A stretch of 49,095 nucleotides of DNA from an uncultured Verrucomicrobiota bacterium. GTDB taxonomy: Bacteria; Verrucomicrobiota; Verrucomicrobiia; Opitutales; Seribacteraceae. The translations under genes were made by a program, and so were the position numbers. Below are positions 11,806 to 38,315 of this stretch, piece after piece (position 1 is the first letter of the stretch; every line of letters begins with the position of its first letter). The notes under the pieces were generated by a model that did no database searches, was not told the DNA's origin, and was given only the letters and a program-made list of their open reading frames with translations. Location: positions 1-49,095 of the forward strand of contig CACHJU010000016.1 of assembly GCA_902580225.1 (NCBI GenBank), read 5' to 3'.

Positions 11806-11994
11806 GAGATTTCTATTATAACATATTCAAGCTTTATCTGTACGCAATTCCAAACCTGTTTGAAAAATTTATCTTCATCAAATTTATAACTTGAAATATG
11901 AAAATTATTACTCAAAATTTACACCTACAGAAACTTTTTGCATACAAATTTAAATCTTTTCTCGTAAATCTGTTAAAGACTCTGAACAAAGGTA

Positions 11995-12007
11995 TTAGAT
12001 AATCTAA
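11995..12007. promoter_or_regulatory. Short palindrome in the SCO / ctaB divergent intergenic region
   Basis: The 278-bp gap between the divergent SCO and ctaB genes must hold promoters for both sides. It contains one perfect inverted repeat, TTAGAT-A-ATCTAA. The repeat lies 77 bp before the ctaB start and could be an operator. The region is very AT-rich, so chance is possible. No clear promoter boxes could be fixed. Confidence 0.3.
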
Positions 12008-12083
12008 CGATATCAATTTTATTAGTTATGACCTTGCTTGCCTCCTAATAAAATATCATTTTACTATATAAGTAATTTCTACC

Positions 12084-21956: not shown

Positions 21957-22904
21957 ATGAAATGTGGTATCGTCTATAATAAAATCTTTGAAGATCATGA
22001 AACTGGTTTGGGTCACCCCGAGCAAAATAAAAGAGCCACTTTTATTTTCAAAAAAATCAAAGAGGCGAATCTTTTAAAATATACTAAAAATATTTCCATT
22101 AAGAAGTGCGAACTCAAAAGCTTATCACTTGTTCATAGTAAAGGTTACCTCCATTCATCGAAAAAAGAAATTGAAAATGGATTAAAATCACTCAGCACAG
22201 GAGATACTCCAATTTGCAAACAGACTTGGGAGGTTGCATCATTTGCCACTGGGGGTGTCCTGAATGCAGTGGAAGAAGTAGTCTCTGGAACACTTAAATA
22301 TGCTTTTTGCATCACCCGCCCACCAGGCCATCATGCAAGCATTAAAAAAGGGATGGGGTTTTGCCTTTTTAATCATGTGGCAGTTGCCACTCGATATGCC
22401 CAAAAAAAACTTGGTATTGGAAAAGTCTTAATTGTTGACTGGGATGTACACCACGGAAATGGAACCCAAAATATTTTTTATGATGATGATTCAGTTTTCT
22501 TTTTTAGCACCCATCAGTCACCCTGGTATCCAGGTACAGGGAATCGCGAAGAAACGGGAACAGGGAAAGGTTTAGGTAGTAATTTAAATTATCCATTTCC
22601 TTCCGGAGCAGGAAGGAAAGAAATTTTAGACTTTGCATTTGCCTCGGAACTTTCCAAAAAAATGGTCCAGTTTAAGCCTGAACTCATAATCATTTCTGCT
22701 GGATTTGATTCAAGAATGAATGATCCTCTCGGGCAATTCCTATTAAATGATCTGGATTTTTTTAACCTCACAAAAATTATTTTGGACATCGCTAAGCAGT
22801 ATAGTGATGGAAGAGTCATTTCAGTATTGGAAGGTGGTTATAATTTGGAAGGATTAGCAACCGCAAGTATCTCTCATCTCGAAGCTTTTATTCAAAATAA
22901 TTAG
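21957..22904 (+). CDS. Histone deacetylase / acetoin-utilisation family zinc amidohydrolase
   Basis: Member of the HDAC superfamily (class II-like bacterial type), which removes acyl groups from amines such as lysine side chains or polyamines. The 315-residue protein keeps the complete active-site set: RPPGHHAS (two catalytic His), DWDVHHGNGTQN (zinc Asp and His), STHQSPWYPGTG, SAGFDSRMNDPLG (zinc Asp) and LEGGYN. It should therefore be active. The real substrate cannot be told from sequence. No acetoin or polyamine genes are adjacent. It is cytoplasmic, with no signal peptide. It may share a promoter with carA, but the 105-bp gap leaves this open. Confidence 0.92.
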   Translation: MKCGIVYNKIFEDHETGLGHPEQNKRATFIFKKIKEANLLKYTKNISIKKCELKSLSLVHSKGYLHSSKKEIENGLKSLSTGDTPICKQTWEVASFATGGVLNAVEEVVSGTLKYAFCITRPPGHHASIKKGMGFCLFNHVAVATRYAQKKLGIGKVLIVDWDVHHGNGTQNIFYDDDSVFFFSTHQSPWYPGTGNREETGTGKGLGSNLNYPFPSGAGRKEILDFAFASELSKKMVQFKPELIIISAGFDSRMNDPLGQFLLNDLDFFNLTKIILDIAKQYSDGRVISVLEGGYNLEGLATASISHLEAFIQNN

Positions 22905-23177: not shown

Positions 23178-23630
23178 ATGTTACGAGGAATTTCTCCACT
23201 TCTTAGTCCAGAATTGCTGGAAACACTTTATCGGATGGGTCACCATGACGAGATCATTTTAGGTGATGCTCATTTTCCTGGCGAAAGTTGTAATAAAAGT
23301 ATTATTCGGGCGGATGGATTACGAATTGACCATCTTTTGGATGCCATTCTACCTCTTTTTGTACTCGATCATGTGATCGAACAACCTGTTATGATGATGG
23401 GACCTTTACCCGAGGATAAAGCCAATTCAAAAATTGCAGCCGATTACCAAAAAGTACATGATGGATATGACGAGATTGTTCAAAAACATTATCCTGGCAC
23501 CGCTTCGATCTGCCAAGTGGATAAATATGATTTTTACGACCAAACTCGTAAAGCATTTGCAGTAGTTATGACTGGTGATACCCGAATCTACGCGAATTTA
23601 ATTTTGGCTAAAGGGGTCACCACCTGGTAA
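23178..23630 (+). CDS. fucU: FucU/RbsD-family sugar mutarotase
   Basis: Interconverts anomers of a sugar, in characterised FucU proteins L-fucose. The 150-residue protein starts MLRGISPLLSPELLETLYRMGHHDEIILGDAHFP, with the catalytic His in GHHDEI. It ends with the family tail TGDTRIYANLILAKGV, carrying the Tyr and Asn expected at the sugar site. A central YDFYDQTRKAFAVV stretch is also typical of FucU rather than RbsD. It faces the end of the large minus-strand catabolic operon with 20 bp between stop codons, so it is a separate transcript that may serve the same sugar. The exact sugar is uncertain. Confidence 0.88.
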   Translation: MLRGISPLLSPELLETLYRMGHHDEIILGDAHFPGESCNKSIIRADGLRIDHLLDAILPLFVLDHVIEQPVMMMGPLPEDKANSKIAADYQKVHDGYDEIVQKHYPGTASICQVDKYDFYDQTRKAFAVVMTGDTRIYANLILAKGVTTW

Positions 23631-23650
23631 GCCTCAATCTTTTCCTATTG

Positions 23651-24475
23651 TTAACCTCTCGATTTTCCACCCGAAATATTCACGGTCGTTCCGTGAATGT
23701 AAGACGCACGGTCGGAAGCCAAAAAAACAACTAAATCAGCAACCTCTGATAATTCACCACTCCTGCCAAGAGGAATGGATGAAACACTGCCGTATTTTTC
23801 ACGAAGTTCCTTAGCACTTATTCCTCTTGTATAAGCGAGAGACTCCTCATATGAGGAACTGCGCATAGAAGTGGTTTCCATAATCCCTGGAGCCACTCCT
23901 ACCACCCGAACTCCTTGTCTGCCTAATTCTTTGGACCAGGAACGTGTCATATTATGGTTTGCGGCTTTAGTAGCCGCATAGACACTTTGTCCTTCACTGC
24001 CTTCCAGTCCTGATTCAGATGTCATATTTATCACCACCCCACCGTTTCCAGATGCAAGCATAGCCCGAGCTGCAGCTTGGGCACATAAAAATTGCCCCTT
24101 CACATTCACTGCAAAAACTTTATCCCAAATCTCCTCGGTTAATTCTTCCTTGCCAGTTGGGTCAACTAAGAGCCTCGGAATATTAATTCCCGCATTATTG
24201 ATCAAAACATCAACTTGTCCAAACTTAGCTACTGTTGACTTCATCATTGCTTCAACCTCAATCTTAGAGGTAACATCACAACGGATAAAAATGGCTTCCC
24301 CGGGTCCTCCCTCATTTGCCTCTATAACCGCTTTTGCCCCGACATTCTCTGCAAAATCACCAATCACAACTTTGGCTCCTACCTCTACAAAACCTTTGGC
24401 AACAGAAAGACCGATACCCGAAGCACCTCCGGTTATAATAACCACTTTTTCTTTTAAATTAGTCCAACTCATCAT
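23651..24475 (-). CDS. SDR dehydrogenase, sorbitol-6-phosphate 2-dehydrogenase-like
   Basis: NAD(P)-dependent short-chain dehydrogenase of 274 residues. The cofactor loop is GGASGIGLSV (16-25), followed by INNAGINIPRLLVDP. The catalytic Ser-Tyr-Lys is in MTSESGLEGSEGQSVYAATK (Y-x3-K). The combination of NIPRLLVDP, GLEGSEGQS and the tail YIHGTTVNISGGKSRG resembles, from memory, the Firmicutes sorbitol-6-phosphate dehydrogenases (SorF/SrlD type) that make fructose 6-phosphate. It follows the SorE-like dehydrogenase by 3 bp, the same pairing as in sorbose operons. A related polyol-phosphate or plain polyol could be the real substrate. It is the last gene of the operon. Confidence 0.85.
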   Translation of the reverse strand: MMSWTNLKEKVVIITGGASGIGLSVAKGFVEVGAKVVIGDFAENVGAKAVIEANEGGPGEAIFIRCDVTSKIEVEAMMKSTVAKFGQVDVLINNAGINIPRLLVDPTGKEELTEEIWDKVFAVNVKGQFLCAQAAARAMLASGNGGVVINMTSESGLEGSEGQSVYAATKAANHNMTRSWSKELGRQGVRVVGVAPGIMETTSMRSSSYEESLAYTRGISAKELREKYGSVSSIPLGRSGELSEVADLVVFLASDRASYIHGTTVNISGGKSRG

Positions 24476-24478
24476 TTA

Positions 24479-26293
24479 TTATTTTGTTAAATTTAAGGGG
24501 TAGAAAGCTTGGTAACCCGTGTAAAGTGCTTCCTCTACTTTTCTGGACCATTGCTCACCGTTTCCCGAGAGTTCTTCTGCTCCAAGCTTCAAAGCTTGTG
24601 ATGCCAAGCCTGAGGACAATCTTGCAGCATCCAGAAATGCTTTTGAACTGACATCAACATATGGCAAATCAGGTAATTCGGTAAATGCAAAAAAAGAACC
24701 GAAGGGTTGAGCTTTTTCTACTTCCTCCATCATTTTAGTAACATGATTTAATCCACAGATTCCCTTTACCATCCAGTCAAAACTGACCGGATTTTTTGCC
24801 TGCACCACCATATCATCTGAGTGAGGTTCTGAAGTGTTTGTTAAAAACCAGGGAACATTGGAACCACAGATTTGATGTCGGGAAACATAATGTGCCTGTC
24901 TAGATAAAATAGGGACTTCTAACTCGCCATCCACAAAATTAACCGCTGCGGAACGTGCAAGTTGAAATTCAATAGATTGATATCTGGCCACCGCATCATC
25001 AGCGGTACCTGCTATAAAAACATCTGTAAAACTGGAATTAGAAGAAATCTCGATCAGACCAAATTCTTTTACTGATTTATTCGGAACATGAACCTGACTG
25101 CCTTTCGGTAAGCTTTTCAAATAAATTTCCAAGCGCTCACTATTTTCCTCAAAGCCAAGCAAAGCAGTGGAAGGGTTGTCTGCAAGGCCATTATTACGAA
25201 TCGGATTGTTTGGACCAATATTATGATGCATGGAAAGAATTTGTGATTCCGCTTCTTCCTCAAAAGAATCAAATTTATCGGCCTTTCCAACAGGCATTTT
25301 GATTATGAGTTCAGGATCTGCTGCTCCTGCATAGCTGTTTAAATTCCCCCCTTTCTCAATAATTGCACAGGCTTGATCATAACTCTCCTGAGATGCATAA
25401 TTAGTCCAAATTATATCGGGTTTTCCAAACTCAGTTAGTTTCGAAATAATTGCAGGATTATTCCGATCAATCAATTCAACCCTCGTACCCCGACTTCTTA
25501 AATCGAGAATTAGAGCATACTGGTCCATCTCAGCGAGTTTTGCATCAGATCCGGTAATATATACCACTTTGGGTAATTCATCATCGGGCACACTGGCCAC
25601 AATGGTTAAATTAATCATAGCCATACGAGCCGTCCCGGACAGGTAAGCAAGTATAGATCTTGGTGGAACTCCGTAGACAAACTCACCTTCTTCATTGAAA
25701 GTAAAAATATGTTTGTTCGTTCCAAAATTACAGGCAAAGGGTTCGGCATGAGCCAAAGAAATTAAGCTGGTGTCCTCTTGCGGTTTGACACGGTTGAAAA
25801 GATTACCAAATCCCTGCGAACGAATAAAGGATGGGGCAATGCCTGGCACCGCATTAAAGCGGCGTAAACCCCCTAAATATTGATATGAATAACCCAAGGC
25901 TGCTAACACCCCGGATTCCTTAGGCTGAAAGCTCAATGGATCGATCGGTTCACTAGCATGACCGGGAGTAATTACCACAATATCACCTGGAATAAATCCG
26001 GAATCTAGGGGAGCCTGTATGATTATTTGTAAAGTTTCATGCCCAAGAGCAACCTTTTCTACACCAGATGGAACCCGTGCATGGGAGTCAAATTGGCGGA
26101 TTGCCTTGGCATCGGATGCACACCGGCAATTTCCAAAACTCGCGAGAACAAAATCATTATCAGTGGTGACTGCAGCAGGCAGTTTTACGGACAGCAGTTC
26201 AATTTTATCAGGACCGGTTAAGAAAACACCTTTGTGGATTTCACTTGATTCCTTGAGTAAGGTACTTGTCCGTTCCTGTAATGAAATTGTCAT
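24479..26293 (-). CDS. Large zinc-dependent medium-chain dehydrogenase, SorE-like
   Basis: Medium-chain alcohol dehydrogenase-fold protein of 604 residues. The GroES-like N-terminal half has a probable catalytic zinc site, C58 in CRCASD with H85 and E86 in LGHET; the structural zinc Cys cluster is not seen. A Rossmann-type region follows with VVYITGSDAKLAEMDQYA. The motifs AEPFACNFG and FTDVFIAGTADDAV, and the late GICGLNHVTKM, resemble L-sorbose-1-phosphate reductase (SorE) and related sugar-phosphate reductases. Those enzymes have about 410 residues, so this one carries roughly 190 extra, spread through the middle and C-terminus. It sits 3 bp before the SorF-like SDR and 99 bp after the E1 gene. 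The substrate is unproven; the family assignment is reasonably safe. Confidence 0.75.
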   Translation of the reverse strand: MTISLQERTSTLLKESSEIHKGVFLTGPDKIELLSVKLPAAVTTDNDFVLASFGNCRCASDAKAIRQFDSHARVPSGVEKVALGHETLQIIIQAPLDSGFIPGDIVVITPGHASEPIDPLSFQPKESGVLAALGYSYQYLGGLRRFNAVPGIAPSFIRSQGFGNLFNRVKPQEDTSLISLAHAEPFACNFGTNKHIFTFNEEGEFVYGVPPRSILAYLSGTARMAMINLTIVASVPDDELPKVVYITGSDAKLAEMDQYALILDLRSRGTRVELIDRNNPAIISKLTEFGKPDIIWTNYASQESYDQACAIIEKGGNLNSYAGAADPELIIKMPVGKADKFDSFEEEAESQILSMHHNIGPNNPIRNNGLADNPSTALLGFEENSERLEIYLKSLPKGSQVHVPNKSVKEFGLIEISSNSSFTDVFIAGTADDAVARYQSIEFQLARSAAVNFVDGELEVPILSRQAHYVSRHQICGSNVPWFLTNTSEPHSDDMVVQAKNPVSFDWMVKGICGLNHVTKMMEEVEKAQPFGSFFAFTELPDLPYVDVSSKAFLDAARLSSGLASQALKLGAEELSGNGEQWSRKVEEALYTGYQAFYPLNLTK

Positions 26294-26392
26294 GTTTTGC
26301 TACTAATAAGAATCTTGGAATTGAAAAGGCAACACATTAGAAATGCATATTGATTACACACTTAAGAGCTAAATTGAATTTTGAAAAGCAAA

Positions 26393-28846
26393 TCAAATTC
26401 CTTCTCGATTACGATGAAGAAGTTCATTGGTAGTAGGGTTTGTTGTCAACTGATGACCGGGTAATGGTAGAATTCGCTCGTGGATTGCATCGATTATCCA
26501 TGATGGTTGAGGAAAGTAATCCTCCTCCACTTCCGCACAGGGTGTAATCCAATTTCTTGAACCCACTACCACCGGCGGGGAATCTAAATCATCAAAAGCT
26601 AACTGGCTGATATTAGACGCAATGTCCTGCATAACCGAGCCACGTACACAGGCATCTGAAGACAAAAGAACTTTTCCTGTCTTACGAACCGATTCTATAA
26701 GAGGTTCATAATCCAACGGATTGATCGATCGACAATCAAATACATCACTGGTCATACCATATTTTTGTTCCAGAATTTCGGCTGCTTCTAATGCGCGATA
26801 CATGGTCGCACCCACCGTAATTAAAGTAATATCTTTTCCAGTTCTTCTCTTCGCGGGCAAACCGAAAGGAATTTCATAATACTCTGCAGGTACTTCTTTT
26901 TCAAAAAGTTCGCCAATATCATAAAGCCTCTGACTCTCGAAAAAGATCACCGGGTCACTTCCGGCTAACGCGGTGTTCAGCATTCCTTTCGCATCGTAAG
27001 GCGTACATGGAAAAACTACCTGAAGACCGGGGATATGATTCACGAGTGCACTCCAATCCTGAGAATGCTGAGCTCCATATTTCGAACCCACCGAAACCCT
27101 TAATACAACAGGCATTTCCAGGATACAGGCCGACATACTTTGCCACTTGGCTAATTGATTAAAAATCTCATCTCCTGCCCTTCCCATAAAATCGCAATAC
27201 ATCAACTCCACCAATGCTCGTCCCCCTTCCAAAGCATAACCCACTGCACTGCCCACTATAGCCGCTTCCGATATGGGCGAATTAAACAAACGATGATAAG
27301 GCAAAGATTCGGTCAAACCACGGTAACAAGCAAATGCCCCACCCCAGTCACGGTTTTCCTCACCATAGGCCACCAATGTAGAATCGTGTTGAAAACGATG
27401 AAAAGCAGCCTCAAAAATTGCGTCACGGAATTGATAGACCTTATTTTTCGACACGGGCTTTCCATCAATCAGACCGGCTCTCGATTTTTTAGCTAATGCC
27501 TGAACCCGGGGATTTTCTGATGCAACCAAGGTTAATTCAGGCTTCCGTGAAGGGTCATAATTTTCAACTTTTCTCTTCGAGAACATCAACCCGCCTATTT
27601 TTTCCGAAGCAAGTCTGGGTGAAACATCTAAATCCGAAGCCAATCGACAAGCTTGTGTCATCGCCTTGGTAATATTGGCTTGTTTCTTTTCGACTGCATC
27701 TTCAGTAAGCATACCCGCATCAATTAATTCCTTGGAATATGCATTGATTGGATCCACAGCCTGCCAGGCTTCCACCTCTTCTTTTATACGATAAGAGGAT
27801 GCATCAGAGGGCGAATGACCGGAATAGCGATAAGTAATTGTCTCAAGTAAAACCGGACCGTCCCCGTTCTCAATCAATGCCTTCTTTCGTTTGATCGCAT
27901 CCACCACTGCCAATGGATTATATCCATCCACACGTTCCGCATGCATTGATTGAGGATTCACACCGGCTCCGACACGGGCAAGATAATCGAAAGCCATAGT
28001 TTCACCGGCAGTCTGTCCACCCATACCGTAGAAGTTATTCATGAAATTAAATATGATCGGTAGCCCCCCTTTCATTCCGTTTTCCCAAAGCTCATGAAAT
28101 TGTCGCATCGATGCAAAATTCATGGCCTCCCAGGTCGGGCCGCATCCCATCGAGGCATCCCCAACATTTGAAATTACAATTCCGTCTTTCCGGTTTACTT
28201 TTTTAAAGAGCGCTGCACCCATTGCAATATCTGCAGAACCTCCCACAATCGCATTATTGGGTAAAATTCCGAAAGGGGGAAAGAACGCATGCATGGATCC
28301 ACCCAGTCCTCGGTTAAACCCGTTTTCTCGCCCAAAAATTTCCGCCAAGGCACCATAGAGTAAAAAATTACGAGCCAAGTCTTTAACTGAGTCCGCACCT
28401 TCTTTTTCCACCACTCGGTAACAATCGCCCCCGAGAAAACTCTCCATAATCTCAATCAGGGACTGATCATCTAATTTTCGAATCGAGGACATTCCTTTCG
28501 CCAAAATCTCCCCATGCGAACGATGGGATCCAAGAATATGATCGTCAATTCCAAGAAGAAAAGCTTGACCCACCGAGGATGCTTCCTGTCCGATTGACAG
28601 GTGAGCCGGTCCCTTGTGGTCATACTCGATTCCTTCATAGGAACCCTGGGTTTTGATGGATTGTAGCATATTTTCAAACACGCGAATAAGAAGCATGTCC
28701 TCATACATACCCACCAAAGCTTCAGTCCCGTAGGCTTCTTTTTCTTGGGCAATATCTTGCTTGTACTGATTCAGTGGAATTTCCGCAAATGGAATGGTTC
28801 CGGCTTTACGTTCTTCGGATGGTTCTACTATTTGTGACTTTGGCAT
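26393..28846 (-). CDS. Fused alpha-beta E1 subunit of a 2-oxoacid / acetoin-type dehydrogenase complex
   Basis: Thiamine-diphosphate decarboxylase component in a single 817-residue chain. Residues about 45-415 are the E1 alpha part: [27 protein letters not shown], the thiamine motif [15 protein letters not shown], and [10 protein letters not shown]. Residues about 465-795 are the E1 beta part: [28 protein letters not shown], a central [12 protein letters not shown] and the transketolase-C domain with DCRSINPLD. Fused E1 chains exist for branched-chain and related complexes. The substrate may be pyruvate, a branched 2-oxoacid, acetoin or a sugar-derived 2-oxo compound; sequence alone does not decide. 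The E3 and E2 genes lie directly upstream, so the complex is complete in one operon. Confidence 0.9.
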
Positions 28847-28875
28847 ATCGAAAGGGGTAAGATTTAATAAAAAGG

Positions 28876-30219
28876 TTACCGGACGGCCATGAAGACATCC
28901 TTCATGATTTCAGATGTGGTTGGATGCGGGAAAACAATTTCCTCAATTTCCTCTTCTCGCAATTCAGTTTCTAGCATGGTAACCGCTCCAAAGATCATTT
29001 CTGAACAAGCACCCCCTACCATATGAACGCCTAGTAAACGATTTGTATCCGCGTCAAGTACCACCTTACACATTCCCTTTTCCCCTGGATTTTCAGCAAT
29101 ATAACGGGCATTGATCGCCATTGGAATTTTACCAGTCTTGACCTTAAATCCGCGATCTAATGCTTCCTCCTTGGTCAGTCCGACCACCGCCACTTCCGGA
29201 CTGGTATAAACCACGGCGGGCATAGTATTATGACGCATCAAATCTTTTTGGCCGGAGATATTATGAACCACCACTTCAGCCATTCGGCTGGCGGCATGAG
29301 CGAGCCATGCCTGACCGGTCACATCACCAGCAGCCCATACGCCCGGTAAATTAGTTGCCCCTCGCTCATCCACTTTGACTCCACCTCTTGGATCAAAATC
29401 CAATCCAATTTCCTCTAGACCGAGGTTAGATACATTCGGCTTGCGACCCGTTGCAATAAGGACCAAATCGGACTCAATATCCTTACTTTCTCCTTCAAGA
29501 TTAAAACGAACGGACTTACCTTCAAAACTTTCCACCTTGGCACCAAGCAAAAAGGTAACTCCTTTCTTTTCGAGTTCCTTGCGCAGAATTTCTGCAATGT
29601 CTGAATCCAAGTTTGGACAAATTTCGGGCATTGCCTCCAAAACGGTTACAGATACTCCAACCGATGCATAAACACAGGCAAATTCACAACCAATTACACC
29701 TCCACCGACGATAACTAAATTTTCCGGTAAATTTTCATTATCCAAAATTCCGGTTGAATCTACAATATGATCGGCCTCAATCCCGGGAATAGGTGGAATA
29801 GCTGGAGAAGAACCGGTACAGAGAAGAATATTTTCCGCTTCATGGTTTTCACCATTCACATTAAACCCGCCTTTAATAAGTTTGGCTTCACCTTCGATCA
29901 CCTCTACTTTATTTTTTTTCATTAAGCCTGCAATTCCGTCCCTCATTCGATCCATGACCGAATTTTTATGGGCATGAGCTTTTCCAAAATTAAAGCGTAA
30001 ACCATCGACTTCGACTCCAAAAATAGATCCATGCTTTGCGTGATGATAGGTTTTTGCAGCCTGAAGAAGAGTCTTGGAGGGCACACATCCTTCATTCAGG
30101 CATACTCCACCAAGCTTTTTCTTTTCAACCATGACCACTTTTAGTCCAGCCGAAGCCGCTTTTTTAGCTGCTATGTACCCTGCGGGTCCAGCTCCGATTA
30201 CAGCAAAATCATATTTCAC
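28876..30219 (-). CDS. lpdA: Dihydrolipoyl dehydrogenase (E3)
   Basis: Flavoprotein that reoxidises the lipoyl arm of the E2 subunit with NAD. The 447-residue chain opens with the FAD motif [15 protein letters not shown]. The redox-active disulfide is C40-C45 in [13 protein letters not shown], the NAD-binding loop is [14 protein letters not shown], and the C-terminal catalytic pair is in [10 protein letters not shown]. The start is GTG at 30217-30219. Just before it, the end of the E2 gene supplies AAGGAGAAG, one of the few Shine-Dalgarno-like sequences in the window. It lies 2 bp after the E2 stop and 29 bp before E1. It is probably a dedicated E3 for this complex. Confidence 0.95.
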
Positions 30220-30221
30220 AA

Positions 30222-31574
30222 TTATTCTTCTCCTTCAATTTTTGATGGGTCTTCACCCGGATGTTTTTCTAAATGTTGCACAAAAGTCTGCAAAAATCGG
30301 GCGGCGGGAGCTCCGTCAATGGCTTGATGATCAATCGTAAGACTGAGCGATATCTGATCGACAAAGGAAACCTCTCCGTTTTCTTGTCTCTTTGGTTTTA
30401 AAGTAATTCCACCCACACCAAGGATCGCAATTTCAGGTGGATTCAAAACCGGAGTGAAATTTTCCACACCTAACATTCCAAGGTTGGTCAATGTAAAAGT
30501 TCCTCCCGAAAGCTCATCCGGTTGAATTGTACCTTCGCGACAGGAAACCGCTTTTTTCTTAATTTCAACTGAGAGCTTTTCGAGAGACATTTTCGAGGCG
30601 TCTTCAACTACCGGGACCATGAGTCCACGAGGAGAATCAACTGCGATTCCAAGATGAACTTCATGAAAAACTGCCAACCGGTCACCAAGAAAATGAGCAT
30701 TCATTTCTGGATGGATTTTCAGGGCGGATAAAATTGCCTTGGCGATCAGATCATTAATCGAAACCTTGGACTCCCCGTCAGCTACTCTTTTCTTGCGCAT
30801 CTCTTGACAGGCAGTGGCGTCAAAAGAAGAATGAAGAGTTAATTGAGCGGTTCCTTGAAGAGACTGCATCATACGATCCGCAATAAGTTTACGGATTCCC
30901 TTAACCGCCTCCACATCCGCCCCCTCTACTGAACCGGGTTCACGCATATCTAAAGCCAAGGCCATGCCCGCGATCCCGCTACCCCGCCCCGGAGCTTCCA
31001 ATCCTTCTTGTTGAGCACGAACTCGGGCAGTGGCTGATAAGCGGGGAGCACTCGCAAGAAAAGCATCCACATCCCTTTCAATTACCCGTCCACCTGGACC
31101 GCTTCCCACTAAAATTGCAGCATCAATACCGGACCGATTTGCTTTCTTGCGAGCTCGCGGACTGACTCCCGCAGAGGGGGCACCCGATGAAACTGGTGCT
31201 GCTACCGAAATAACATCTGAGGTGGGCTGAGATGTTGTTTGATCGACCGGTGCAGGTGGGTCTACTGAATCTGTTTCCGCAACCGGAGGTGCAGTTTCAA
31301 CGGAACTGACAGGCCGAAATTCGGCAACATTCTCACCTTCATCCCCAATCACCAAAACATTGGCCAAAACCGGAATATCATCATCCGCCTCCCAAAAAAG
31401 CTCGAGAACTGTTCCGGTCGCGGTTGATTCCAAGTCAAAGCTTGCTTTGTCAGTTTCTATCACGGCAAGAACTTCACCCTCGGCGACGGTGTCACCGGGT
31501 TGAACTTTCCATTCAGTAAGGATACAGCTTTCAACGGATTGTCCCTGTCGGGGCATAATAACTGGAGTTGCCAT
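30222..31574 (-). CDS. Dihydrolipoamide acyltransferase (E2)
   Basis: Core acyltransferase of the complex, 450 residues. Domains in order: one lipoyl domain (about 1-80) with the lipoylated lysine K43 in IETDKASFDL; a Pro/Ser/Val-rich linker (86-135); a peripheral-subunit-binding domain (136-172) with SPRARKKANRSGID and GPGGRVIERDV; a second short linker; and the catalytic domain from about 220 to the end. The active-site His is in LTIDHQAIDGAP, where most family members have DHRxxDG, so Arg is replaced by Gln. The last ten residues are acidic. It follows the DeoR gene by 24 bp. Lipoylation must come from enzymes encoded elsewhere. Confidence 0.94.
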   Translation of the reverse strand: MATPVIMPRQGQSVESCILTEWKVQPGDTVAEGEVLAVIETDKASFDLESTATGTVLELFWEADDDIPVLANVLVIGDEGENVAEFRPVSSVETAPPVAETDSVDPPAPVDQTTSQPTSDVISVAAPVSSGAPSAGVSPRARKKANRSGIDAAILVGSGPGGRVIERDVDAFLASAPRLSATARVRAQQEGLEAPGRGSGIAGMALALDMREPGSVEGADVEAVKGIRKLIADRMMQSLQGTAQLTLHSSFDATACQEMRKKRVADGESKVSINDLIAKAILSALKIHPEMNAHFLGDRLAVFHEVHLGIAVDSPRGLMVPVVEDASKMSLEKLSVEIKKKAVSCREGTIQPDELSGGTFTLTNLGMLGVENFTPVLNPPEIAILGVGGITLKPKRQENGEVSFVDQISLSLTIDHQAIDGAPAARFLQTFVQHLEKHPGEDPSKIEGEE

Positions 31575-31598
31575 AATTTTCTTTTATTAGGTTAAATT

Positions 31599-32378
31599 TT
31601 AAACAACATGAACTTTTACTCCATGTTTAGGTAGAGTTTTTATAAAAGTGGAGGGGAGTTTATGATCACTCAATAAAACATCAATCTTTTGCCAATCTGA
31701 AACTCTCGCAAAAGATACTTTCTCCGCCTTACTCGAATCGGCCAACAGTACCACTTGAGAAGCCTGCTCCATGATCAAAGATTTTACAAATGCTTCATTA
31801 GGGTCTGTGGTGGTAAGACCATTTTTCAGGCAAAATCCCATAGTTCCCATGAAAGCCTTATCGACCCGAACTTGATTCAGCACGGCAGAAGTAAGAGGCC
31901 CCACCATTGTCTGACTTATTTTTCTTAATTCACCGCCGGTTAAAATCACTCGGGGTCCGGAATCTGATAATTCACCGGCTGCCCGTAATGAATTAGTGAC
32001 CACCGTTAAATCATTCCTGTCTTTTAATAAGCGTGCCAAGCATAAGGTAGTACTGCCTCCATCCAAAAAAACAGAGTCATCAGGGCCGATTAAATTATAA
32101 GCTTTTTCAGCTATCGACCTTTTTTGCTTTGAAAATTGACTGGTTTTATCATCAAAAACTGATTCTTCCAAACGGTTTTCCATGCTAACCGCACCCCCGT
32201 GAACCCGTCGTACTTTTCCCTCATCTTCAAGAACTTCAAGGTCCCGACGAATTGTGGCTACAGAAACTTTGAGTTCTCGACGTAAATCCTCCACGCGGGC
32301 AATCCCGCTTTCTCTAACGAGTAAACGAATATGCTCCCTTCTTTGGGGAGCTAAAGTTGGACAGGCTTCACGAATCAT
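31599..32378 (-). CDS. DeoR-family transcriptional regulator
   Basis: Probable repressor of the surrounding catabolic operon, sensing a phosphorylated sugar intermediate as is usual for the family. Residues about 14-55 form the DeoR-type winged helix-turn-helix (LRRELKVSVATIRRDLEVLE). The rest is the sugar-phosphate-isomerase-like sensor with DGGSTTLCLARLL, VVTNSL, LTGGELR and GLTTTDPNEAFVKSLIM. Length (259) is normal. The gene sits in the middle of the operon. Tandem repeats that look like its operator lie 18-35 bp upstream of its start, suggesting autoregulation and control of the downstream E2-E3-E1-SorE-SorF segment. Confidence 0.93.
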   Translation of the reverse strand: MIREACPTLAPQRREHIRLLVRESGIARVEDLRRELKVSVATIRRDLEVLEDEGKVRRVHGGAVSMENRLEESVFDDKTSQFSKQKRSIAEKAYNLIGPDDSVFLDGGSTTLCLARLLKDRNDLTVVTNSLRAAGELSDSGPRVILTGGELRKISQTMVGPLTSAVLNQVRVDKAFMGTMGFCLKNGLTTTDPNEAFVKSLIMEQASQVVLLADSSKAEKVSFARVSDWQKIDVLLSDHKLPSTFIKTLPKHGVKVHVV

Positions 32379-32395
32379 CTTGATCGAATAAGATT

Positions 32396-32413
32396 GTTTT
32401 TGATCGTTTTTGA
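32396..32413. promoter_or_regulatory. Tandem 8-bp repeats, putative DeoR operator
   Basis: GTTTTTGA occurs at 32396-32403 and again at 32406-32413, a direct repeat with a 10-bp period (one helix turn). On the minus strand it reads TCAAAAAC-GA-TCAAAAAC, just upstream of the DeoR start at 32378. A-tract direct repeats of this form are typical DeoR-family operators. No equally good copy was found before pfkB, before the SorE-like gene or before fucU. Confidence 0.5.
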
Positions 32414-32478
32414 AAGAATTGCAACCAAAGAATTGAAATTTAGATCTTTTAACATCACCCGGGGAAGTCTAAAGAAAA

Positions 32479-33681
32479 TCAGAAATTACTGAGAATTAAA
32501 TCACCTAAACCCTTTTGTTTCTCAATAGGAATTTCATTCCATATTTGTTTAAGAGCGGATTCTGGAGAATCCCAGTTCATTTCAAGACAGGCAAAATTCA
32601 AAGCCAGCGCCGCCCCTTTGGAGAGGATTCTTGGTTCAACCCCGGCCTCACAGGCGAGTTTCATGGAACCAAGCAACCGATCTTCCCATCCAAGTTTTCG
32701 GACCGGATCTCGGGTGACTCGATCCACTGGGTCCCTTAAAAAAGGATTGATCATACGAAAAACCGCATCCTCAGCATAGTCTTTAAATCCCGTTGGGGTG
32801 AACAGGGGATCGTCCACTTGGGAAAATTCTCGACACAATCCAACCCCAACCTCCTCAACAAACGCTGTTTTTACGGTTTCTATTAAATCGTTCCTCAGAC
32901 CCGCCTCATGCATGTAAACAATACCCCGTTCCTTACTTAAATATCCCAAAAGGGCATGTACTGCATTATGCCCCAAGAATTTAGTAATGGCAAAAGGTTC
33001 CAATTCTGGCTTAGTATGAAATTGGCTCAAACCCCGGGTAAAATTGTCAGGGATTTTTTCCTCGATCATAATTTCATTGAAAGCTTCGACTAAGAAAGCT
33101 TTCGGAAATCCATTCCCTATCGGGGCTAAGTTTTCCTCCTTAATTCGGTTGGAATCCGTGACCACCGAGCACATCTTTGCGATCACCGTTTCTGAGAAAA
33201 CCACTCTCTGTTCCGATAAATTTCCCAAGTATTGACCACAAGCACTCCGTAAACGTGAAGCTGCACGAGCATCATTTTCAGCTGCATAAATGACTGCGGA
33301 TGGAAGATCCGCTTGATCTAATTTTATCTTCAAACCATCGGCAATGATTTTCGCAACTGAATCCTGTTTGGAGTCGTAGAGTTTAAAACTGGGAAGAGCG
33401 GTACACATTTCCTTAGCCTCGGCAATTGCCTGAACCAGTTTTACCCGGTCTAGGGGAACCCTTGGATTATAAATTTCCACTCCCTCAATTTTTTGGACTC
33501 TCACCCCGTCTGATTCTGCAATATTACAAAAATAAGTACCCCTGGTTTTCCTGACTTGATCGACAATTTGTTGATCAATTTCAGATACAACCAATCTGCT
33601 GTAAGCATTGGCTGAAAAAGCTGCAGGAAGAAAAAGCCCACCCTGAATGGCCCCAAAGCCAAACCCAACAAAAATATCCAT
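32479..33681 (-). CDS. Mannitol-dehydrogenase-family oxidoreductase
   Basis: NAD-dependent polyol or polyol-phosphate dehydrogenase of the long-chain mannitol dehydrogenase family, 400 residues. The N-terminal Rossmann fold begins VGFGFGAIQGGLFLPAAF, a slightly altered form of the GAGNIGRGF-type motif of mannitol-1-phosphate 5-dehydrogenase. The catalytic lysine signature K-x4-N-x2-H is present as K234, N239 and H242 in TKFLGHNAVHALLGYL. Length is close to mannitol-1-phosphate dehydrogenase (about 380) rather than the ~490-residue mannitol 2-dehydrogenase or fructuronate reductase, which favours a phosphorylated substrate. It lies 5 bp after the PHP-like gene and 100 bp before DeoR. Confidence 0.78.
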   Translation of the reverse strand: MDIFVGFGFGAIQGGLFLPAAFSANAYSRLVVSEIDQQIVDQVRKTRGTYFCNIAESDGVRVQKIEGVEIYNPRVPLDRVKLVQAIAEAKEMCTALPSFKLYDSKQDSVAKIIADGLKIKLDQADLPSAVIYAAENDARAASRLRSACGQYLGNLSEQRVVFSETVIAKMCSVVTDSNRIKEENLAPIGNGFPKAFLVEAFNEIMIEEKIPDNFTRGLSQFHTKPELEPFAITKFLGHNAVHALLGYLSKERGIVYMHEAGLRNDLIETVKTAFVEEVGVGLCREFSQVDDPLFTPTGFKDYAEDAVFRMINPFLRDPVDRVTRDPVRKLGWEDRLLGSMKLACEAGVEPRILSKGAALALNFACLEMNWDSPESALKQIWNEIPIEKQKGLGDLILSNF

Positions 33682-33686
33682 ACTTT

Positions 33687-35006
33687 TTATTCAGCCATTG
33701 CCCGGGCAATCAAATTACTCACCTCTCTGGCACCCATCTCAATATGAAGTAAATCCTTCAGTCTTTCATCTCCACGGGGAGAAAACTTTTCTCCAAAAGA
33801 GGCATAAAACTCGTTTTTGGAAGAAACATCCGAAAATTGATTGTTAGCCCAATCACTAAGATACCCCATTCCGGCATATCTTTGCAGTGTTGAATGGGCA
33901 TGAAGTATCCATGAACCTTGTAAGAAAACCGATTGATGGGGGGCCAATTCAGCGGAGTTAAAATCATCGACAAATTTTTGACCGGGACTGTTCATTTCAG
34001 TGCCACCCAGTAAAGGAAGCCCTAAGTCTTTGGTTAATTGAATAACCTGATTCAGATTTTTCAACTTTTGATCCGATTGACCCGGAGTGTAATTACGGTC
34101 AGGAATAATATTAAAAGCAGCCACTCCGCTGGACCGTCCAACCTCCACCAATTCTTCAATTGACTGTTCCCCAGTTGAACATCCATCCAACCAGGTAAAA
34201 GTTGGAATAGCTCCACATAACAGAACAAATTCATTCATTTCCGCCATCTCGGGGAACGAACCGGAATCAGGTCTCACATACCCCGCCCCACCCTGCTTCA
34301 TGGTTTTGGCCCGAATTAAATCCGTGATCGGGCGACCATCAGGCAACTCATTAATATCCTCTTCGGATACTCCAAGTTTATCACTCCAAAATTTTCTAAG
34401 CTCGGATTCATCTGAAAACATCGATGCAGCTTTTCGTGCATAAGCCACGCAAAGATGACGCTCAGTGGCGTTTCCCTTAGGGGTAAGAGGAAGCACATCA
34501 GAATGATAATCAAGAACCAGTGGAGAAAGGAATTGATTTACCCGTTTAACCATAGCCTGATTCCGCTCCGCCGAAGTTGATCTCATATTATCCAGAAAAG
34601 TCTGGGCTTTCTCTGGTATATCAGTGGTGGTGAATCCTGTACCCATATGGTAGCTAATTCCTGGTTCACCCGGGGAATTGATCTCACGATCTGCAAATTC
34701 GGGAACAAAGACACGGGATTCAATACCCACACACCCCTTCAAGTCAAGCAGCCGGCTGGCTTCCCAAAATTCCTCCAATCCATCTAAAACATCAAAGTCA
34801 ACAATCCCACCCATTTCTAAGCCTTCACGCTTAGCTTCCAAAACAAATCGAATCGGTGAATAACCTTTATAATTAAAGGAATAGAAGGTGTGAGCATGGG
34901 CATTTACAAACTTTCCGACCGGTGGAAAATTTTCCTCTCCTGCAAGTTGAGCCAGTGCCTGCCGACGCGTGGATAAATCATAATGGTTTATAATATCTTC
35001 AGTCAT
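33687..35006 (-). CDS. PHP-like TIM-barrel protein with an altered metal motif
   Basis: A 439-residue cytoplasmic protein of uncertain function. Its N-terminal part matches the start of PHP-domain phosphoesterases: NAHAHTFYSF (H37, H39), then SPIRFVLEAKREGLEMGGIVDFDVLDGLEEF and a GIESRVFVPEF segment. In PHP proteins the second motif is TDHD; here it is VDFD (69-72), so one metal-binding His is lost. A later GGTEMNSPGQ may stand for the GSDxH-type site. A lyase or hydrolase acting on a sugar intermediate is conceivable. It is co-transcribed with the PfkB kinase (30 bp upstream) and the mannitol-dehydrogenase-like gene (5 bp downstream), which ties it to carbohydrate use. Confidence 0.6.
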   Translation of the reverse strand: MTEDIINHYDLSTRRQALAQLAGEENFPPVGKFVNAHAHTFYSFNYKGYSPIRFVLEAKREGLEMGGIVDFDVLDGLEEFWEASRLLDLKGCVGIESRVFVPEFADREINSPGEPGISYHMGTGFTTTDIPEKAQTFLDNMRSTSAERNQAMVKRVNQFLSPLVLDYHSDVLPLTPKGNATERHLCVAYARKAASMFSDESELRKFWSDKLGVSEEDINELPDGRPITDLIRAKTMKQGGAGYVRPDSGSFPEMAEMNEFVLLCGAIPTFTWLDGCSTGEQSIEELVEVGRSSGVAAFNIIPDRNYTPGQSDQKLKNLNQVIQLTKDLGLPLLGGTEMNSPGQKFVDDFNSAELAPHQSVFLQGSWILHAHSTLQRYAGMGYLSDWANNQFSDVSSKNEFYASFGEKFSPRGDERLKDLLHIEMGAREVSNLIARAMAE

Positions 35007-35036
35007 TTATTTTTTTAAAAAGAAAATATCGGAAAA

Positions 35037-36074
35037 TTAGCTTTCATCGTCGCCAATGCCGAACTTATCAGCTAAAGCGAGACATTCTTCGAGCGAACGG
35101 AGTCCATCGGTACAGGTCGGGTTGGACATACAGGCAGTGGCAGCACAGGTTCCGGTCAGAAGGCATTTTTCAAGGGGCCAATTCTCGTGTACACCTAGAA
35201 GAACTCCGGAACAGAATGCATCACCTGCTCCAGCTGCACCCTTTATATAACCTTTAGGAAGAGCTAACGAACCCTGTCTTAATTTTTCTCCGGAACGAAG
35301 TTGCCCGTAAGAACCTTCTGGAAAATGAATGGCCACCAGTTCGGTGACTCCGAGTTCAAACAACTTGGCACTGGCTTCCATGACGCCCTCTTCAATTAAT
35401 GTCCCATCCCTGCGCACCTCCACGCCGGTTACTTTACTCGCTTCGATCTCGTTTAGGATGCAATAATCCACTTGTTTCAAAGCCGGGCCAATAATTCTGG
35501 AAAAACGGTCACTGTCCTCGCTAACCACATCAATACTCGTTTTAAAGCCCGCAGACCTTGCTTTGGCAAGCAAGGCGGCTCCGACTGTTCCATGTTCTGG
35601 ATCTTCTGCATCAATCGCATTGAGTAAAAGCAAATAACCTAAATGAAAAATCCGGGCACTACTTCCAGAGAAATCAATATCACTTCCATTCCAAGTCGCA
35701 TTGGCCCCCTGATTATGAAAAAAAGTACGCCGTCCCCCTTCAATTTCTGTCATAACATCAGTGTAAGATGTGGATGTGCCTGGTGAGACCGAAATAAAAA
35801 CGGGATCGATATTATTGGAACGACAATCATCAATAATGTATTCTCCCAATGCATCCTGTCCGACCAATCCCGCCCCAATCAGAGGAAAATCCGCTCCGAG
35901 CTTTGCCAAATCGAGTAAAACATTGTACGGAGAGCCACCTGTTCCTTGTGACTGTCCGGATATATTAGCAAGTTGTTCATGACCTGGGTAGACATCAATC
36001 ATTTTAACTTGGTCTATAATCCAGTTGCCACCTGCAAGTAGTCCACTGCGCTTACTAGGGATTTCTTGATTCAT
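35037..36074 (-). CDS. PfkB-family carbohydrate kinase
   Basis: Ribokinase-fold sugar kinase of 345 residues. It has the glycine-rich GTGGSPYNVLLDLAKLGADFPLIGAGLVGQD region (PfkB signature 1 and substrate loop), a middle lid segment, and the ATP/anion-hole motif AAGAGDAFCSGVLLG with the catalytic Asp. The substrate could be fructose, another ketose, or a deoxy-sugar acid. It is the first gene of the minus-strand catabolic operon, so the main promoter should lie in the 364-bp gap upstream. Its likely role is to trap the sugar as a phosphate for the two downstream phosphate-type dehydrogenases. Confidence 0.88.
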   Translation of the reverse strand: MNQEIPSKRSGLLAGGNWIIDQVKMIDVYPGHEQLANISGQSQGTGGSPYNVLLDLAKLGADFPLIGAGLVGQDALGEYIIDDCRSNNIDPVFISVSPGTSTSYTDVMTEIEGGRRTFFHNQGANATWNGSDIDFSGSSARIFHLGYLLLLNAIDAEDPEHGTVGAALLAKARSAGFKTSIDVVSEDSDRFSRIIGPALKQVDYCILNEIEASKVTGVEVRRDGTLIEEGVMEASAKLFELGVTELVAIHFPEGSYGQLRSGEKLRQGSLALPKGYIKGAAGAGDAFCSGVLLGVHENWPLEKCLLTGTCAATACMSNPTCTDGLRSLEECLALADKFGIGDDES

Positions 36075-36438
36075 TGTAATTTCAAAAGGCTAGGAGTTTT
36101 TTTTAAGAATGCGGAATAGTTTTTCTTAAAATGACAGAAAAAACAAAATTAAAACATAGAAATACTCTATTCCTCACAATCTTAAAATAAAATGTATACC
36201 CAATTGTCTGACTATATAAACTATTTTTAAAACCTTGGTCTCTTTCCAATTAGTAGTAGAAAAATACCTGAGGATAAAAACTAGAACTTTTATCTGATGA
36301 TTGAGTAACTGGGGAACTGTCCAATCTAGAATCGGAGTCTATTTACAAGAACCAGAATTAGAAAGGGATAACCAAGAGACTATAAAAGATTTTGTAAAAG
36401 TGTGATCCAAATTCATAATTCAGTCGTTTTTTTCCATT
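36075..36438. other. Intergenic region upstream of the catabolic operon
   Basis: A 364-bp AT-rich stretch without a convincing gene. It should hold the minus-strand promoter of the pfkB operon and perhaps a plus-strand promoter for the two small ORFs that follow. The only structure noted is a perfect inverted repeat GATAAAA (36275-36281) / TTTTATC (36290-36296), a possible operator. No clear -35/-10 pair could be fixed. Confidence 0.4.
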
Positions 36439-36815: not shown

Positions 36816-38315
36816 TCACAAAGCTTTTTCACTAATCTTATTTTCAATTGTCTTTATTACCACATCCATCGCTTTGATTCGGGCAAATCGTTTACAGTTA
36901 CCCTCTATAATGTTCCAAGGTGCAAAAGATGTATGGGTACGCAAAAACATTTCTTCTACCGCTTCTTCATATAATTCCCATCTCTCTCGATTTCTCCAAT
37001 CCTCTTCATGTAATTTCCATTGTTTGGATTGATTTTCTTTTCTTGCTTCAAACCGTTTTAACTGTTCATCCTTATCAATATGTACCCAAAATTTGACTAA
37101 GGCGGTACCATAGTTATGAAAATTTTCCTCCATCTCGTTGATTTCACGAAAAGCCTGCTTCCAGTCATTTTTTTCGCAAAATCCTTCCACTCTTTCGACT
37201 AACACCCGCCCGTACCAAGAACGGTCAAAAATAGTCAAATGTCCGGACTTTGGAAATTCAGTCCAAAACCGCCATAAATAGTGATGGGCTTTTTCCACAT
37301 CATTAGGTGCGGATACAGGGATAACCTCATAACCACGGGGATCCATTTCCTCAGTTAATCTGCGAATATTGCCTCCTTTACCGGCTGCATCCCAGCCTTC
37401 GTACACAATAACCATGGGAATTCGCAAACGATAAAGTTCATTGTGTAATGAATGAATTCTCTTCTGACGAATACTAAGTTTTTCCCGATACTCTTCTTTA
37501 TCAAGCGACAAAGATGTATCTGTTTTTGCGAGGGAAGGAGCGTTTCTGAAGTGTGGAAGAGGATCCGCGGGAATATTGCGTTCAAATTTTATTCCGCTTT
37601 TACGCTTCTCCACTTTATTTCGCAATAACCCAACCAGAGATTCCAAAATCTTAACGGTTGCAGAAAGAAATTTTTTGGTATCAACCTCCTGCCAATGCAC
37701 TCCGTCCTCCACATCGGTTTCCTTAAACATATCTCTGGCAGCTTCTTTATATTCCTCGTATTTATAATGGCGGGCAAGAACCCCGTCATCTACTCTCCAT
37801 GATGTGTTCGGATTATTCCTAAGGGTTTGGAGACGTTCAAACTGTTCCTTTTTTGAAATAGATAGAAAGAATTTAAAGATCACCGTGCCACTGTCCCGCA
37901 ACTGCCTCTCAAAAGAGCGTATATCCGCATAGGCATTTTCTAATTCCTCTTCCTTTAAATTTCCTTCCACCACCTCGTCGAGTAAATTTCGATACCAACT
38001 CCGGTCAAAAATGGCCATCCGCTCAGCGGATGGAGTCCGTCTCCAAAAACGCCATAGAAAAGGACGCAGTTGTTCATCCCGACTGGGCGAAGCAATACAG
38101 GTGACTTTGAATCCACGGGGATCCAGTGGTTGAATGATTTTATTGATCATGGATCCTTTTCCTGCTGCACTCCACCCCTCCACCACAATCAAAACAGGAA
38201 TACCAAACTCCCGGCATTTTCTCTGCAGGTAACCGAATTCTTCGCCCAATTCCTCGATCTTACGCTTTTGAGCCTTTTTTGGCTTTTCTACATCCGCTAT
38301 CAATTGTGCTGTCAT
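36816..38315 (-). CDS. pap: Polyphosphate:AMP phosphotransferase (two-domain PPK2 family)
   Basis: Transfers phosphate from polyphosphate to AMP, making ADP, and so links polyphosphate stores to energy charge. The 499-residue chain has two tandem PPK2 domains, the layout of the class II (PAP) type. Each has a P-loop: EGWSAAGKGSMINKI (about 46-60) and EGWDAAGKGGNIRRL (about 305-319). Each also has the lid motif FDRSWY (FDRSWYRNLL in the first, FDRSWYGRVLVERVEGF in the second). In characterised two-domain enzymes the C-terminal domain is the active one; here both P-loops are intact. It is a single-gene unit with an upstream gap of about 105 bp after the porin terminator. Cytoplasmic. Confidence 0.93.
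   Translation of the reverse strand: MTAQLIADVEKPKKAQKRKIEELGEEFGYLQRKCREFGIPVLIVVEGWSAAGKGSMINKIIQPLDPRGFKVTCIASPSRDEQLRPFLWRFWRRTPSAERMAIFDRSWYRNLLDEVVEGNLKEEELENAYADIRSFERQLRDSGTVIFKFFLSISKKEQFERLQTLRNNPNTSWRVDDGVLARHYKYEEYKEAARDMFKETDVEDGVHWQEVDTKKFLSATVKILESLVGLLRNKVEKRKSGIKFERNIPADPLPHFRNAPSLAKTDTSLSLDKEEYREKLSIRQKRIHSLHNELYRLRIPMVIVYEGWDAAGKGGNIRRLTEEMDPRGYEVIPVSAPNDVEKAHHYLWRFWTEFPKSGHLTIFDRSWYGRVLVERVEGFCEKNDWKQAFREINEMEENFHNYGTALVKFWVHIDKDEQLKRFEARKENQSKQWKLHEEDWRNRERWELYEEAVEEMFLRTHTSFAPWNIIEGNCKRFARIKAMDVVIKTIENKISEKAL

Follow-up and report, generated by a model that had tools for sequence, protein, structure and literature searches.

The 49,095-nucleotide stretch analysed here (contig CACHJU010000016.1 of assembly GCA_902580225.1, from an uncultured marine Verrucomicrobiota bacterium of the Seribacteraceae; hereafter the window) carries an operon of nine minus-strand genes at 23651-36074, in which a complete E1-E2-E3 dehydrogenase complex stands among polyol and ketose genes. 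Its E1, a fusion of the alpha and beta subunits, belongs to a clade of its own, and the genome encodes a separate canonical pyruvate dehydrogenase (PDH). By analogy with 2,3-butanediol/acetoin catabolism, the operon may direct sugar catabolism under DeoR control, with a dedicated complex acting on a sugar-derived hydroxyketone or 2-oxoacid; we consider this the best explanation and give it an about even chance of being correct. Each of the proteins is of a known superfamily. No description of the combination, the operon or the E1 clade was found in searches of an open-licence full-text library, which misses most subscription journals.

Gene content of the operon

According to the open reading frame (ORF) list, all nine genes are co-directional, with a PfkB-family sugar kinase gene first and a short-chain dehydrogenase/reductase (SDR) gene last, and the successive gaps measure 30, 5, 100, 24, 2, 29, 99 and 3 bp in that order. 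The E2 acyltransferase (30222-31574) contains lipoyl, E3-binding and catalytic domains (PF00364, PF02817 and PF00198), and the E3 dihydrolipoyl dehydrogenase (28876-30219, GTG start) scored 502 bits against TIGR01350, above the cut-off of 408.8. The fused E1 of 817 aa (26393-28846) contains E1_dh (PF00676), Transket_pyr (PF02779) and Transketolase_C (PF02780). With these intact domains the three proteins belong to the 2-oxoacid dehydrogenase superfamily. They are preceded by a DeoR-family repressor (31599-32378; PF00455, PF08220).

Upstream of the repressor gene, the PfkB-family kinase (35037-36074) matched PF00294 with an E-value of 9.3e-24, its best NCBIfam model being IolC_N with 80.9 bits against a cut-off of 300. 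The next gene encodes a PHP-family metal hydrolase of 439 aa (33687-35006), for which the PF02811 match of 20.4 bits lies under the Pfam cut-off of 26.4. Its structure model (pLDDT 89.7) matched the PHP phosphoesterases 2yb1 and 3o0f with E-values of about 1e-9, as well as 3e0f and 9etk, and the HxH motif and further candidate metal ligands were invariant in 13 aligned rows. By predicted fold and alignment it thus has both the fold and the ligands expected of a PHP phosphoesterase. The third protein, of 400 aa, is similar to mannitol-1-phosphate and mannitol dehydrogenases (MtlD-like; 32479-33681; PF08125, 55 bits). It reached at most 100 bits with the NCBIfam MtlD models, whose cut-offs are 269-800, and equivalence to MtlD was rejected, since the best match of 100 bits compares with a cut-off of 356.

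Downstream of the complex lie a zinc-type medium-chain dehydrogenase/reductase (MDR) of 604 aa with an inserted stretch (24479-26293) and the SDR (23651-24475), which by sequence is placed among sorbitol-6-phosphate dehydrogenases by NF004817, a subfamily-level model (352.3 bits, cut-off 304). The 604-aa protein matched no Pfam or NCBIfam model at an E-value of 0.01, and it is called an MDR because of its homologues and its predicted fold. It aligned with shorter MDR relatives; C58, H85, E86 and E184, the probable zinc ligands, were invariant in 13 rows. Foldseek assigned its model (pLDDT 84.1) to the MDR fold, the best E-value being that of propionyl-CoA synthase 6eqo, followed by secondary-alcohol and sorbitol dehydrogenases. 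An RbsD/FucU sugar mutarotase gene on the plus strand (23178-23630; PF05025; NF011949, 135.6 bits against a cut-off of 141) converges on the SDR gene with a gap of 20 bp. The arrangement is as in a preliminary description made from the letters and the ORF list, which had recorded nine minus-strand genes with gaps of 2-100 bp, the complex among sugar genes and the convergent FucU gene. Its gene labels were borne out by Pfam or NCBIfam for all proteins but the MDR, the PHP match lying under the cut-off; the designation of the MDR as SorE-like found no model to support it.

The fused E1 defines a separate clade

In a quick tree of 90 rows, the window E1 fell into a single branch with an SH-aLRT support of 100, apart from references annotated as PDH, branched-chain 2-oxoacid dehydrogenase (BCKDH) or acetoin enzymes. 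This group, defined here as clade A, comprises 62 Verrucomicrobiota rows (the window included, four duplicates) and four plasmid rows, one being noise. The window E1 also carries the clade-only residues. These were found in 51 columns that were more than 97% invariant in 65 clade A rows and in which the residue occurred in at most one of 24 other rows. Among them are R499 and W501 near E496, and K589, D597 and W598 around H594. By alignment to PDB chains, E496 and H594 correspond to the Glu and His to which we ascribe catalysis in PDH E1b, and the five clade-only residues may line the substrate pocket. Relative to PDH, the clade A E1 contains two insertions, which are partly common to clade B, a second group of fused E1 from 20 Verrucomicrobiota loci (L182-L201) with 38-40% identity to the window E1.

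In a sample of the phylum, for which the two best E1 candidates per genome were scored, a clade A E1 (at least 55% identity) was identified in 66 of 387 Verrucomicrobiota genomes, the own genome included. All other carriers lie outside the class of the window, and none of 20 genomes of the same order outside the family had a clade A E1. This patchy distribution, together with the plasmid copies described below, suggests horizontal transfer.

The housekeeping enzymes are encoded elsewhere

The preliminary description had considered that the complex might be the only, housekeeping PDH of the genome. This was rejected. A canonical PDH is encoded elsewhere in the own genome (L062, at C32), with E1a at 426.8 bits (TIGR03182, cut-off 393.85), E1b at 432.4 bits (NF006667, cut-off 321) and an E2 at 415.7 bits, slightly below its cut-off of 445; a second E3 is found at C1. 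The fused E1 scored 200.5 and 222.3 bits, respectively, with the same two E1 models. It thus falls far below the equivalog cut-offs, and is 38% identical to the E1b with which it coexists.

The same was observed for most other carriers of clade A. Of the 32 genomes of the family with the fused E1, 21 have a canonical E1b and five others AceE; the remaining six are 57-92% complete, five of them less than 83%. Outside the family, pyruvate:ferredoxin oxidoreductase (PFOR) was above the cut-off in 53 of the 64 genomes tested out of 65. Among the 11 without a full PFOR, AceE was found in five (eight tested), PFOR fragments in three and a separate E1b-like gene in G399, and no other pyruvate-to-acetyl-CoA enzyme was found in G179 and G272. 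In total, another full-length enzyme for this step (PDH, AceE or PFOR) is present in 84 of 96 clade A genomes examined. Within the window's family the housekeeping E1 itself varies, largely by genus, between canonical E1a/E1b (G000) and AceE, as seen in a comparison of G000 with G290, G315, G316, G318, G319, G321 and G323; G290 has both.

Conservation within the family

The window is part of a 2.36 Mb assembly. The five nearest relatives of its PHP gene, in assemblies labelled Opitutia, Opitutales and Verrucomicrobia, are 72-87% identical. In four of them the order from PfkB to SDR is unchanged, and the contig of the fifth (L034) stops inside MtlD. Because the order recurs in relatives, the gene set is not a chance assembly.

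Over the family, 21 loci, the window included, were counted from the 32 genomes with a fused E1 (tblastn, one row per locus). E3 was found in 20, MDR, SDR and FucU in 19 each, E2 in 18, PHP, MtlD and DeoR in 17 each and PfkB in 15. Judged by flank lengths, the absences sit at contig ends, except for FucU in L176 and for L180, which is rearranged, with the MDR on the opposite strand and no SDR found. The linkage of E1-E2-E3 to the sugar genes, a check proposed in the preliminary description, is therefore kept in the family. In three loci (L169, L170 and L176) a class II aldolase gene lies between E1 and MDR.

Gene neighbourhoods outside the family

For clade A outside the family, 49 loci sampled from 65 genomes were searched within 10 kb of E1, some flanks being short; the complex genes, MDR, PHP and SDR were counted only on the same strand. 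The sample is non-random, as nine of the 49 loci were first found through an MDR match, and eight of the 16 omitted genomes also have an MDR beside E1. Genes for E2 and E3 were found in 43 loci each, DeoR in 39, MDR in 18, SDR in 14, PHP in 13, an FGGY kinase in 11, transketolase in six and aldolase in three. PHP, MDR and SDR together adjoin E1 in 12 loci, and over all 65 genomes a sugar gene stands beside the complex in at least 32.

The gene order differs between families. The usual order in families f18 and f25 is DeoR-E2-E3-E1-PHP-SDR-MDR, followed in f25 by a rhamnulokinase-like FGGY kinase (6/6) and mostly by transketolase (5/6). In f26 it is PHP-MDR-SDR, two small ORFs and DeoR-E2-E3-E1, and in f17 DeoR-E2-E3-E1-MDR. 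Two f17 loci contain a RhaD-type aldolase-SDR fusion near the complex (L056, 6763-8613; L154, 9260-11125), the L056 copy scoring 240 bits with the RhaD aldolase-ADH model (cut-off 567.75). In five f18 or f25 loci an inorganic pyrophosphatase gene was observed 3' of the MDR (L055, 10913-11524; L060, 12031-12642; Pfam match obtained on the L055 copy), which possibly indicates a tie to a pyrophosphate-linked step.

More distant PHP homologues were examined at 12 loci, nine from Planctomycetota, two from Verrucomicrobiota and one from Hydrogenedentota. An MDR of a 525-561-aa class directly follows PHP in six of them (L040, L041, L042, L044, L045 and L048), and an FGGY kinase precedes PHP in L041, L042 and L045. 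The planctomycetal locus L045 combines DeoR (on the other strand), an E1 of 30% identity, E2, FGGY kinase, PHP and MDR, while L048, also planctomycetal, has an E1 piece, PHP, MDR, a class II aldolase and an SDR. That PHP and MDR in these two loci accompany an E1 with only about 30% identity argues for a functional linkage. The L045 MDR (11310-12980, 556 aa) aligned twice to the shorter L052 MDR, with residues 7-339 and 328-554, as if its Rossmann part had been duplicated. Downstream of the PHP-MDR pair, DUF2961 proteins are encoded in two Planctomycetota loci (L042, 13166-14350; L040, 13678-14892).

Clade A copies on plasmids

Among 776 plasmid records with any E1 match, 16 of the 25 best listed carry a clade A E1 of 52-55% identity, all from Hyphomicrobiales; the rest of these 25 are at 32-36%. 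In all five of the 16 loci that were inspected, sugar kinase genes lie near the E1. On Rhizobium johnstonii pRL8 and in R. indicum, the E1 is accompanied by a lipoyl protein, an alpha/beta hydrolase, a sugar kinase, a sugar-binding regulator, RbsD/FucU, a sugar phosphate isomerase/epimerase and sugar ABC transporters. An Agrobacterium plasmid has mannitol dehydrogenase, xylulokinase, another carbohydrate kinase and lipoyl synthase, a Pleomorphomonas plasmid xylulokinase and a DeoR-type regulator, and RCAM05350 FGGY kinase genes and mannitol dehydrogenase, with the E1 annotated as two overlapping genes. On the plasmids, annotations of the E1 name either an acetoin enzyme or an 'alpha-ketoacid dehydrogenase subunit alpha/beta'.

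The hydrolases of L209-L211 matched best the acetoin E2 model PRK14875 (152.9-202.1 of 307 bits), the L210 kinase a fructokinase model (136.3 of 450 bits) and the L210 epimerase a D-psicose 3-epimerase model (143.4 of 300 bits). As all of these remain below the cut-offs, they indicate kinships, not identities. In the plasmid collection, the MDR search gave just weak Escherichia coli matches in five records, and no PHP homologue was found. A function for pRL8-type clusters with a fused E1 was not found in the open-licence literature searched.

Comparison with known systems

In 2,3-butanediol/acetoin catabolism (aco operons), diol dehydrogenases produce a hydroxyketone, which an E1-E2-E3 complex of the thiamine diphosphate type cleaves to an acyl-CoA. 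The window operon resembles it in having polyol or diol dehydrogenases beside such a complex, and the plasmid copies of clade A are accompanied by acetoin-type E2 pieces. Compared with the acetoin references from plasmid records (L213, L216 and L218), however, the window has a fused 817-aa E1 of another clade and a PDH-type E2, and its partners are a sugar kinase, PHP and DeoR. An acetoin-type E2 (lipoyl and alpha/beta-hydrolase) was rejected for the window, as its E2 has the classical catalytic domain and reached 61.2 of 307 bits with PRK14875. With the canonical PDH of the own genome the complex shares domain order and best family models, whereas its E1 differs as described above. The pRL8 cluster and its kin likewise combine a clade A E1 with a PfkB-type kinase, RbsD/FucU and a sugar regulator, but have ABC transporters, a psicose-epimerase-like gene and, in place of a single E2 protein, separate lipoyl and alpha/beta-hydrolase proteins.

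In the L-sorbose (Sor) operon, uptake occurs by a phosphotransferase system (PTS). Similar to it are the SDR above the sorbitol-6-phosphate dehydrogenase subfamily cut-off and the presence of an MDR dehydrogenase, whereas the window MDR has an insertion and the operon adds a kinase, PHP, the MtlD-like protein and the dehydrogenase complex. The PTS component EIIC (PF02378) was found in none of seven family genomes, the own one included, in agreement with the absence of a PTS noted before. Neither the window MDR nor its shorter relative L055 matched any model named SorE, and the MtlD-like and PfkB proteins fall far below equivalog cut-offs. Thus a mapping onto the L-sorbose PTS pathway, with which the preliminary description compared the operon, is not supported. 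The gene set described for the Luteolibacter L-glucose pathway (PMC12632266) also differs from the window operon.

Proposed function and its alternatives

By analogy with the acetoin system, a ketose, polyol or deoxysugar would be catabolised under the control of the DeoR repressor. The MDR, SDR and MtlD-like dehydrogenases would convert it to an alpha-hydroxyketone (ketose) or a 2-oxo compound, while phosphate would be handled by the PfkB kinase and the PHP phosphoesterase. The fused E1 could then cleave the intermediate, be it the ketose, a ketose phosphate or a derived 2-oxoacid, on thiamine diphosphate; the acyl group would be passed via the E2 lipoate to CoA, and E3 would produce NADH. 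Support for a complex that specifically serves an intermediate of the sugar pathway comes from the distinct E1 clade and from its independent occurrence in sugar clusters on Hyphomicrobiales plasmids.

Several findings weigh against this proposal. Of the 49 clade A loci from other families, 24 have at least one of the searched sugar genes and 25 show none within 10 kb. Clade B, with the order DeoR-E1-E2-E3, keeps DeoR in 17 of 20 loci (in 16 of these with 45-57% identity to whichever of two DeoR queries matched better), yet has sugar genes in just three. From these neighbour counts, DeoR goes with the complex, and the sugar genes are recurrent, not fixed, partners. The linkage in the operon stands, but where the preliminary description saw a complex inserted among polyol genes, a core of DeoR and the complex to which sugar genes are added is the better reading, since DeoR-E2-E3-E1 is common without them nearby. 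Conversely, E1, E2 or E3 was found in just three of the 12 distant PHP loci (L041, L045 and L048); at the other nine no complex gene is in view, which speaks for PHP functioning without the complex too. In G059 a 51%-identical MDR homologue (L051, 8073-11447) lies on another contig than the clade A E1, which indicates that the MDR does not need the operon to function. The operon contains neither a transporter nor an isomerase, and therefore a complete pathway cannot be drawn; moreover, the own genome is only 66.6% complete, and the reference rows of the E1 tree are long-branched according to a warning of the tool. The best NCBIfam models of the fused E1 are PDH subunits, though far below cut-off, and this E1, with GHS-x-SD, keeps the motif GHS-x-(S/T)D of the PDH and BCKDH references. 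Acetoin-annotated references have GHFEGD (L213) and GHYAGD (L218), but the motif does not decide, because L216, whose neighbour is an acetoin-type E2, has GHSKSD.

The main competing explanation is that the complex is a second PDH, inducible by sugar: DeoR would sense a sugar phosphate and induce this additional enzyme along with the sugar genes to cope with pyruvate overflow, the E1 substrate being pyruvate. It is a serious possibility, if clearly a less than even one. The motif and the PDH models, which are also the best ones for E2, fit it, as does the persistence of DeoR beside the complex even where sugar genes are lacking (39 of 49 clade A and 17 of 20 clade B loci). Such an enzyme would, however, be redundant with PDH, AceE or PFOR in the 84 of 96 genomes, the clade-only residues adjoin catalytic positions, and plasmid copies are flanked by acetoin-type E2 pieces. 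It appears decidedly unlikely that the substrate of the complex is a short aldolase-branch product instead of the ketose itself, for example a 2-oxoacid or hydroxyketone arising from lactaldehyde or glycolaldehyde once a class II aldolase has split a deoxyketose phosphate. Some loci do have a class II aldolase or the RhaD-type fusion, and L045 and L060 a rhamnulokinase-like FGGY kinase below cut-off, but the window operon has no aldolase, and a match near E1 was found in only three of 21 family loci and three of 49 others. It is highly improbable that a DeoR-complex cassette, probably horizontally acquired, landed among sugar genes and was then inherited without any link to the pathway. This would agree with the frequency of DeoR-E2-E3-E1 without sugar genes, with the absence of the E1 from the 20 same-order genomes and with the own genome being its only carrier in its class in the phylum sample. 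Against it, several Verrucomicrobiota families have the same kinds of sugar genes next to the complex in varying order, and such genes also accompany the E1 on alphaproteobacterial plasmids and a different E1 in two Planctomycetota loci.

As to the reaction of a dedicated complex, a CoA-dependent ketolase would have its counterparts in phosphoketolase and acetoin dehydrogenase, cleaving a ketose or ketose phosphate between C2 and C3 on thiamine diphosphate to glycolyl- or acetyl-CoA, NADH and a shortened aldose (phosphate). We consider this activity unlikely. Phosphate or hydroxyls could be bound by Arg499 and Lys589, two clade-only residues that neighbour the catalytic Glu and His, and no description of a CoA-dependent ketolase of the 2-oxoacid dehydrogenase type was found in the open-licence literature searched. 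If a sugar intermediate were indeed converted directly to an acyl-CoA, a sugar-to-CoA-ester route bypassing lower glycolysis and pyruvate would span 66 of the 387 sampled Verrucomicrobiota genomes and plasmids of legume symbionts. On a conservative reading, a DeoR-linked second dehydrogenase complex of Verrucomicrobiota is defined. With the clade A copy RL_RS25565 on pRL8 of R. johnstonii 3841, the question can be addressed in a strain amenable to genetics.

A candidate operator and neighbouring genes

A near-palindrome, GTTTTCCTTGCCATG(C/T)AAAGAAAAA, could be aligned 5' of PfkB in 14 of 14 family rows (one duplicate), while L178 could not be placed; the right half is degraded in several rows. 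The strict pattern occurs in five of 226 loci, every one of the window's family, and with up to three mismatches no copy was found in the window. A degenerate copy at 36120-36144 (minus strand) scored 24.8 with a position weight matrix partly built from this site, compared with 13.1 for the next best site in the window. A scan of other families with the matrix gave nothing convincing, the best being L141 with 20.0. DeoR may bind the candidate operator at 36120-36144.

The MDR homologue in L051 adjoins a Na/H exchanger gene. Immediately upstream of the operon, a minus-strand gene (36816-38315) has two matched stretches of polyphosphate kinase 2 (PPK2), and it also stands before PfkB in four of five named relatives. 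On the other side, a plus-strand gene for a histone-deacetylase-family protein (21957-22904) adjoins FucU, with the same position in 14 fetched loci; acetoin-utilisation proteins are also members of this family.

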